A stretch of DNA of 53,307 nucleotides from assembly GCA_025934835.1 (NCBI GenBank), contig JAICWL010000010.1:1-53307 (forward strand). The letters run 5' to 3'. The notes beneath the pieces were generated by a model. That model worked only from the letters and a program-made list of their open reading frames with translations. It did not search any database and was not told the origin of the DNA. Below are positions 44,433 to 46,273 of the stretch, one piece after another (positions within the stretch are counted from its first letter, which is position 1; every line of letters begins with the position of its first letter). Position numbers and translations under genes: made by a program. The DNA comes from Fimbriimonadaceae bacterium (GTDB taxonomy: Bacteria > Armatimonadota > Fimbriimonadia > Fimbriimonadales > Fimbriimonadaceae).

Positions 44433-44465
44433 GGCGCGTGGCGGGATAAGGGCTTGGTTCTAGCC
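44433..44465. repeat. 33-base direct repeat, right copy, overlapping the MFS stop
   Basis: Differs from the left copy (43464-43496) at three positions. It contains the stop codon of the MFS gene (CTA at 44460-44462 on the plus strand) and a few of its last bases. The flanks outside the repeat are not similar in the two copies, so this is a short repeat and not a gene duplication. Confidence 0.85.
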
Positions 44466-45704
44466 GCTGGGTTGCGCGGGGCCGGCGACCCACCAGGCGG
44501 CGATGGCGGGTATGAGGATAAGCGAGGCGCCGAGGATGTAGGGTGAGTACGGACGCCAGAAGAAGAGCGGGTTGCTTATCAGCGGGCCGATGAATCGCGC
44601 CGTCGCGCCGAGCGATTGGGTGATGCCGAAGATGCCGCCCTGCACGCTCTTGGGCGAAGAGCGAGAGATCAGGCTGCTGATGCTCGGCTGCGAGAGGCCC
44701 TGGCATATGCCCATGACCAGCACGACGCAAAGCATCGGCCACCAAAGGTGCATGAACGGAACGAGCGCCAACGCGGGCGCGAGAACCAGGTAGCAGACGC
44801 GCAGAACTCGCACCTCGCCGAACTTCGGCACGACTCGGCGCACGACGCCCCCCTGCATCGTGGCCGCGATGACGCCCACGATCGTCAGGATGTACGCGCC
44901 GTATTCCTGCGAAAGCGCTCGGCCGAGGTGGAAGATCCAGCTCTTGTCCTCGAGCAGGATGAAGAAGGTGGTCTCCAGATTCGTGAAGCCGAGGTTCAGC
45001 GTGAAGAACATCACAAGCAGCAGAGCAAGTCCCGGGGTCGAGGCTGCGATCCGCAGGTTTTGTACGAAGCTGCGCTTTTCTCTCGGCTCCTCGTGTTGGC
45101 GGCTGTCCGGAAGAATCAGCAGGACGTACAGGAAGTTGATAGCCGCGAGAAAAGCGCCGGAGTAGCCCAGAATCGCCGGCGAGCCGTTTCCCAGGTGCGC
45201 GAGCCAAGCGCCGATCGGAGGTCCGAAGATGAAGCCGAGACCGAACGCCGCGCCCACCGCTCCCAGGCCCTTCGCGCGGTGCTCGGGCGCCGTGACGTCG
45301 GCGATGTAAGCAAACGCCACGCCGACGTTCGCCGCAGCTATGCCGGAAATGGCCCTGGATAAGAAGATCGTGCCGATAGACGCGGTGTGCGCGTAAACCA
45401 CGTACGAGATGGTCGACAGGACCGTAGTGACCAGCAACACCGAGCGCCTGCCGGAGTGGTCGCTCATCTTGCCCAGGAAAGGCGCAGTCAGGAGCTGGGC
45501 GAGGCTGAACACGCCGAGCAGCATGCCGAGCACCCACCCGGAGGCTCCCAGCGCGTGGCCACGGAGCTGCACATCCGGGATGAACATGCCGAATCCCAGC
45601 AGGTCGATAAAGACGGTGAGAAAGATCCCGAGTATCGGCGAGGGCCGTAATCCGATGCCGAAGCGGGCTATCAGAGGATCGGTAGTCAGGGGTTCGGCGC
45701 TCAT
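44460..45704 (-). CDS. MFS transporter, TCR/TetA-like
   Basis: 414 residues from ATG 45704. Twelve hydrophobic segments, with the MFS A-motif GKMSDHSGRRSVLL between helices 2 and 3 and FGPPIGAWLAHLG after helix 5 as the C-motif region. The central loop contains PDSRQHEEPREKRS. The resemblance is to tetracycline-resistance-type drug/proton antiporters, but these families also export many metabolites, so the substrate is unknown. It lies 72 bases downstream of the 94-residue gene controlled by a c-di-AMP riboswitch and could share that transcript. Confidence 0.87.
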   Translation of the reverse strand: MSAEPLTTDPLIARFGIGLRPSPILGIFLTVFIDLLGFGMFIPDVQLRGHALGASGWVLGMLLGVFSLAQLLTAPFLGKMSDHSGRRSVLLVTTVLSTISYVVYAHTASIGTIFLSRAISGIAAANVGVAFAYIADVTAPEHRAKGLGAVGAAFGLGFIFGPPIGAWLAHLGNGSPAILGYSGAFLAAINFLYVLLILPDSRQHEEPREKRSFVQNLRIAASTPGLALLLVMFFTLNLGFTNLETTFFILLEDKSWIFHLGRALSQEYGAYILTIVGVIAATMQGGVVRRVVPKFGEVRVLRVCYLVLAPALALVPFMHLWWPMLCVVLVMGICQGLSQPSISSLISRSSPKSVQGGIFGITQSLGATARFIGPLISNPLFFWRPYSPYILGASLILIPAIAAWWVAGPAQPSG

Positions 45705-45744
45705 CGGGCGGGAAAGTTCAGTGTATCCCGCCACGACGGTCGAG

Positions 45745-45776: not shown

Positions 45777-46061
45777 TCAATTTGCGTAGATCTGCGGCGG
45801 AGCGTGGGGATGGAGTGCTTCCATCGCTTCCTCTCTTACGTCGCGCTGGAGCCGCTCTGCGCTCGATGCCATGCGTGTGAGGCCGGCCGACGAATTCCGG
45901 TCGGCGCTATGAGCGATTTGTGCCTTGGCGTGCGAGAAAGTCCTCGCTTGGATCTTGAGGCTCCGACCGAGCATGATCAGCAATCGGGCCTTGCGGGTGG
46001 GCGTCATGGGAGACTCTCGGATGATCTCCATCCGGCGTCTCACTTCAAACTCTGTGAGCAT
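45777..46061 (-). CDS. 94-residue basic helical protein under c-di-AMP riboswitch control
   Basis: 94 residues with a strong GGAGGAG site 8 bases before ATG 46061. It is soluble, Arg/Lys/His-rich and mostly helical: MLTEFEVRRRMEIIRESP, TRKARLLIMLGRSLKIQA and MASSAERLQRDVREEAMEAL. There is no signal peptide or membrane helix and no family I recognise. It starts 30 bases after the end of a clear ydaO-type riboswitch on the same strand, so its level should depend on c-di-AMP. A role in osmotic, potassium or cell-wall homeostasis is a guess from the usual c-di-AMP regulon, not from the protein itself. Confidence 0.72.
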   Translation of the reverse strand: MLTEFEVRRRMEIIRESPMTPTRKARLLIMLGRSLKIQARTFSHAKAQIAHSADRNSSAGLTRMASSAERLQRDVREEAMEALHPHAPPQIYAN

Positions 46062-46074
46062 CCATGTTTCTCCT

Positions 46075-46089
46075 CCAGGCTGGGCCTGG
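46075..46089 (-). promoter_or_regulatory. Hairpin at the end of the riboswitch, adjoining the ribosome site
   Basis: CCAGGC and GCCTGG pair around three bases (minus-strand reading CCAGGC-CCA-GCCTGG). The right arm directly adjoins AGGAGAAAC, the ribosome site of the 94-residue gene. It could be the switching element of the expression platform, working at the level of translation. Confidence 0.6.
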
Positions 46090-46090
46090 T

Positions 46091-46216
46091 CCTTGCATCC
46101 GCCTGCGAGGTTAGCTGTCGGGTTCGGGCCAAGAACTACCCGCTCTTCATCGCTGAAGAGTTCACCCCTTTCAGTGGGTCCCCCGCTGCCGTTTCCCCAA
46201 CGGCACTCGGCGTAGG
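46091..46216 (-). ncRNA. c-di-AMP (ydaO/yuaA-type) riboswitch aptamer
   Basis: Read on the minus strand, the highly conserved blocks of the ydaO-type aptamer appear in order: GCGGGGGACCCA, GGGGTGAACTC, GCGGGTAG, CCCGAACCCGACAGCTAACC and TCGCAGGCG. A P2-like hairpin (TGCCGTT-GGGG-AACGGCA) lies just before the first block, and CGCC/GGCG near the two ends can form P1. This order and spacing are those of the RF00379 family as I remember it, which binds two c-di-AMP molecules and usually turns expression off. The controlled gene begins 30 bases after the aptamer. The ends of the feature are approximate. Confidence 0.93.
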
Positions 46217-46242
46217 CGCCCCGGCTTCCCGGGACTGGATAA

Positions 46243-46273
46243 TCTATACCCGAACCACGGGCACGACTGACAA
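46243..46273 (-). promoter_or_regulatory. Candidate promoter of the riboswitch transcript
   Basis: On the minus strand TTGTCA (46268-46273) and TATAGA (46243-46248) are 19 bases apart. The -35 differs from TTGACA at one base. Transcription would begin near 46236, just ahead of the aptamer, which fits. Confidence 0.5.

Follow-up and report, generated by a model that had tools for sequence, protein, structure and literature searches.

A c-di-AMP-class riboswitch precedes a new family of small, predicted three-helix-bundle proteins in the Fimbriimonas order and probably controls its translation

Riboswitch targets tell what a signal is for, and the published targets of the ydaO class (RF00379) are K+ and amino-acid transporters together with cell-wall and osmotic-shock genes (PMC7266159). 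A literature search returned no paper on c-di-AMP riboswitches in Armatimonadetes or Fimbriimonas, the supplements of the two primary ydaO papers being outside its reach. Here, we analyzed a stretch of 53,307 nucleotides from a Fimbriimonadaceae bacterium (hereafter the window), in which a sequence-only reading had proposed a c-di-AMP riboswitch on the minus strand, in front of a 94-residue protein.

By scanning the window against Rfam (cmscan), we found that this claim holds: an RF00379 match at 46222-46085 on the minus strand reached 80.8 bits (E 2.7e-17) against a gathering cut-off of 38 bits, and covered model positions 1-134 of 134. Nothing else in the window matches Rfam at the gathering threshold. 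All five ordered blocks on which the proposal had been built fall within this single full-length match. The aptamer lies inside the range named at the time, and aptamer plus gene are better bounded as 45777-46222. The same genome encodes a diadenylate cyclase domain (PF02457, E 1e-35) and therefore the ligand, c-di-AMP, can be made. Judged by its match to the model, the window RNA is thus a c-di-AMP-class riboswitch. The features of the locus are the following:

46085-46222, minus strand: c-di-AMP (ydaO/yuaA) riboswitch aptamer, RF00379, full length (80.8 bits, E 2.7e-17)
46130-46136, minus strand: GUUCUUG, 5' strand of the predicted pseudoknot, located in the aptamer's last hairpin loop (pairs with CAAGGAC; covaries over 82 riboswitches)
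46089-46095, minus strand: predicted pseudoknot 3' strand CAAGGAC (pairs with GUUCUUG), its last base common to the hairpin beside the ribosome site
46075-46089, minus strand: putative expression-platform hairpin CCAGGC-CCA-GCCUGG, 6 bp (homologous leaders have a hairpin there as well)
46070-46076, minus strand: Shine-Dalgarno sequence GGAGGAG (from the sequence)
45777-46061, minus strand: 94-aa riboswitch-linked protein of a new family, predicted three-helix bundle, start ATG 46061-46059 (homologues, AlphaFold, purifying selection)
44460-45734, minus strand: MFS transporter open reading frame, start GTG 45734 or ATG 45703 (PF07690, E 2e-45)

The 94-codon frame had been proposed as a gene from the open reading frame, and homologues of its product were indeed found. 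First, the start position and the MLTEFEVRR motif of the frame are common to them. Second, dN/dS ratios (Nei-Gojobori) were 0.07 between G030 and G151, 0.15 between the window's genome (G000) and G005, 0.18 between G000 and G008, and at most 0.40 in the fastest group. Because of these homologues and ratios, the frame is to be taken as a true gene under purifying selection. Overlapping starts (ATGGATG) are present at 46059-46065 on the minus strand, where the upstream ATG at 46065 opens a six-codon frame, MDAHRV. The same arrangement occurs in G012 (ATGAATG), most other homologues are without it, and it is probably due to chance. We rejected ATG 46065 as the gene start: the homologues speak for 46061 and do not generally carry the upstream ATG.

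The protein had been described as soluble, basic, helical and without a known family. It is basic (pI 11.1, with 16 K+R against 10 D+E) and probably soluble. AlphaFold2, run with 24 homologues, predicted helices at residues 4-16, 21-49 and 55-83 with a mean pLDDT of 90.8, a confident model in which the protein would fold as a three-helix bundle. No Pfam, NCBIfam or PHROG family fits it: scans with 17 members gave scattered, near-chance matches of one or two members each. A profile search of the PDB gave nothing below E 0.04, that is no solved structure related by sequence, Foldseek gave no match at E≤0.001, and phage records contained no relative. In the libraries searched (Pfam, NCBIfam, PHROG and solved structures), the protein family is undescribed. 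The protein also falls outside the known classes of the c-di-AMP regulon, namely K+ or osmolyte transport and cell-wall hydrolases. The suggestion of a new member of that regulon was thus supported: a protein of no known family behind a c-di-AMP-class riboswitch.

To which genomes does this pairing extend? A protein search returned homologues in 16 further genomes (60 relatives), and a profile search across the phylum (291 genomes) counted 33 family copies in 30 genomes of the Fimbriimonas order, leaving out a marginal match that lies within a frame of 692 codons. In a GTDB contig scan with a tighter alignment, the named records were all Armatimonadota, Fimbriimonas sp. among them. As far as searched, the family thus appears confined to the Fimbriimonas order of Armatimonadota. 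The N-terminus of the copies reads MLTEFEVR, or a variant, and coincides with the start of the window frame; a KAR..L motif follows, and a DVR..A block stands at the end. In an alignment of 24 members, identity to the window protein ranged from 23 to 60%, the N-terminal MLTEFEVR block and the KAR motif being conserved.

Homologues that never carry the RNA had been named as grounds for rejecting the riboswitch, and the outcome was the opposite: RF00379 stands directly upstream, on the same strand, of 27 of the 33 copies, the window's included. The six copies without it are those of G005, G017, G032 and G138, one in G025 (C6) and, in G031, the second member of a tandem pair. Since genomes carrying the family have only 1-5 riboswitches in 2-6 Mb, chance association can be dismissed, and the association between riboswitch and family is not accidental. 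Seen from the RNA, a search of 61 genomes gave 82 riboswitches, and 23 of them have a member within 900 nt downstream. This count was made with a profile that includes divergent riboswitch-linked sisters, which profile comparison assigns to the family (hhalign probability 98.6%, E 7e-16). These 23 are spread over 19 of the 45 riboswitch-bearing genomes. The new family is the commonest predicted translational target of RF00379 riboswitches in the Fimbriimonas lineage.

We then considered how the RNA might control the gene. A promoter-like site had been noted upstream, but a sigma-70 consensus scan on the minus strand did not find it. The hairpin noted beside the ribosome site is present: CCAGGC-CCA-GCCUGG adjoins GGAGGAG and a hairpin recurs there in homologous leaders, while the 61-nt stretch around it in the window is no more stable than shuffled sequences (z 0.14). 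The pairs formed by the aptamer loop and the 3' strand in leaders of the translational type vary between genomes (GUUCUUG/CAAGAAC, GCUCUUG/CAAGAGC, UGGUUUCUG/CAGGAACCA, CUUUCGG/UCGAAAG). Over the 82 riboswitches, own pairs scored 14.73 against 12.49 for permuted pairs (sd 0.24), with a maximum of 13.43 in 2000 permutations. Because the own-pair score lies above all permutations, the predicted pseudoknot covaries. In leaders of the translational type, its 3' strand overlaps or adjoins the hairpin by the ribosome site.

To compare the two states, folding of each leader was started either behind the pseudoknot strand (the "bound" state) or behind P1 (the "free" state), so that the bound state is modelled by strand removal rather than by real ligand energetics. 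With the pseudoknot formed, predicted accessibility of the ribosome site was lower in 19 of 28 leaders and higher in one. The shift averaged 0.11 in the leaders and -0.02 in block-shuffled controls (Wilcoxon p 5e-5, an optimistic value as the 28 leaders are related). In the window leader the predicted change is small (from 0.54 to 0.49) and the hairpin can still form with 5 bp when the pseudoknot is in place, the effect being clear only over the leader set. By eye, an anti-ribosome-site strand CUCCAUG can be seen in G050 and in the C14 and C17 copies of G046.

These computations point to a pseudoknot, to translational control and to an OFF switch. At high c-di-AMP, the bound aptamer together with the 3' pseudoknot would occupy the pseudoknot strand, which would weaken the adjacent hairpin so that the ribosome site could be paired. 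At low c-di-AMP, the strand would be free, the adjacent hairpin would form, and the ribosome site would stay open for the protein to be made. We therefore favor, as the likeliest reading and with reasonable though not high confidence, a c-di-AMP riboswitch that turns off translation of a new family of small basic three-helix-bundle proteins, the protein being a low-c-di-AMP effector.

The opposite direction, in which binding of c-di-AMP would free the ribosome site and the protein would be produced when c-di-AMP is high, is the alternative that survives best, and we consider it unlikely. It would agree with the small difference between states in the window leader and with conserved aptamer bases AACCUC that, once unfolded, could pair with GAGGUU-type ribosome sites in several leaders (by eye). 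Against this, folding predicts OFF in 19 of the 28 leaders and ON in a single one, and the c-di-AMP riboswitches described so far are mostly OFF switches.

Still less probable is that the RNA controls transcription termination rather than translation, with the small frame as a by-stander or a leader ORF. Such platforms do exist in the order: about 31 of the 82 riboswitches, counted by motif, carry CACCTCCT and, behind it, a GC-rich hairpin, in most cases with a T tract, and this terminator-like group, many members of which stand before a hisB-hisH-hisA cluster, includes the other riboswitch of this genome. However, another large group, to which the window's riboswitch belongs, runs straight into the ribosome site. 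In the window leader no T-tract terminator was found, the ribosome site lies 9 nt and the start 24 nt behind the aptamer match, and the frame is under purifying selection and conserved to the level of the order.

The other riboswitch just mentioned is the one further RF00379 match in this genome (3.33 Mb, 190 contigs). It lies on contig C99 (locus L124, contig positions 48918-49054, minus strand). A terminator-like hairpin stands behind it; the next recognized frame on its strand encodes flagellin, approximately 870 nt downstream. About 14 of the 82 riboswitches (L082, L080, L094, L102 and others) are found mostly 160-260 nt before hisB-hisH-hisA in many Fimbriimonas genomes, most of them with terminator-like platforms. 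This would link c-di-AMP with histidine synthesis, a connection that is not known to us. A search of this genome for TrkH found none, and one for TrkA_C found a single protein, on neither riboswitch contig.

The protein had also been suggested as a regulator of the MFS gene downstream. Downstream of the small gene, on its strand, the MFS frame begins after 42-73 nt and no intrinsic terminator was predicted between the two, so that co-transcription is possible. That riboswitch, protein and transporter form one operon, with the protein as dedicated regulator of the adjacent MFS, nonetheless seems to us improbable. The gene order is repeated in G036, and MFS genes of the same group lie near riboswitches in G034, G035 and G020. 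However, of 16 riboswitch-linked loci that were examined, only those of the window's genome and of G036 have a same-strand MFS behind the family gene, the others having unrelated neighbors, and the MFS is on the opposite strand in G020 and separated by hairpins in G034 and G035. The MFS is thus no general partner of the family, and the suggestion was not sustained. Finally, a chance resemblance to the ydaO motif is practically negligible given the E value, the match at every model position and the RF00379 linkage at 27 homologous loci.

Returning to the favored reading, an OFF switch for a low-c-di-AMP effector, the 94-aa protein could act as a soluble adaptor or regulator that binds a partner in the potassium/osmotic or envelope response, a speculative role guessed by analogy with the known regulon of the class, and one we hold to be rather doubtful. 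Other genes behind riboswitches of the order may be considered along with it. A second riboswitch-linked small-protein family, whose C-terminus often reads PFMEFSS or PFMEYSS, lies behind 9 of the 82 riboswitches, at L155:4565-4960 (-), L114:4530-4955 (-), L139:4584-4958 (-), L151, L156, L157, L104, L128 and L152. Tad1/Acb2-like genes follow three c-di-AMP riboswitches in genomes of the Fimbriimonadaceae family: at L087:1969-2301 (+), at L112 (G030:C8) about 48 nt behind the riboswitch, and at L141 (G029:C1) 371 nt behind it. Their products match Tad1 in the PDB (8kbb, E 4.5e-9), 7uav (E 1.3e-4) and phrog_2428 (E 7e-19). The Tad1/Acb2 family is known for phage nucleotide sponges, of which Acb2 sequesters 2',3'-c-di-AMP (PMC12657218). 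Between riboswitch and sponge, G029 seems to have a distant member of the 94-aa family (profile E 1.2e-5).

Together, the 94-aa family and the second small family lie behind 31 of the 82 riboswitches. It is conceivable, though we propose it only tentatively, that the main translational output of c-di-AMP riboswitches in the Fimbriimonas order consists of fast-diverging three-helix-bundle proteins rather than transport or cell-wall functions, some of these proteins in tandem with Tad1/Acb2-like sponges, as an undescribed effector or buffering layer of c-di-AMP. In any case, a well-understood RNA sensor marks here a new family of proteins in a phylum that has been little studied, the pair is conserved across an order, and the pairing makes a role of the protein in c-di-AMP signaling directly testable.

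Compared with known structures, the helix arrangement of the 94-aa protein resembles generic three-helix bundles (mite allergen Der f 21, phage T4 UvsY and part of VanR; VIA-align Z up to 9.8), but identity to these is only 8-12% and Foldseek placed none of them at E≤0.001. As Z values to 9.8 are usual among helical bundles, no relationship is claimed, and naming the family from Foldseek or VIA-align was rejected, both giving generic helical bundles only. The second small family (M.LL..AE..F...) is like the first in lying directly behind RF00379 with a translational leader and in being a predicted three-helix bundle, and differs from it by the additional C-terminal tail (PFMEFSS); a test for homology between the two found none (hhalign probability 2%), although the folds look alike. 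With the ydaO/yuaA class, the window RNA shares the sequence and structure of the full model, the 3' pseudoknot strand, the position in a 5' leader and a genome with a diadenylate cyclase domain. In contrast to that class, its target is an undescribed small helical protein and its control is probably translational: the RNA is of a known class and the protein family is new.
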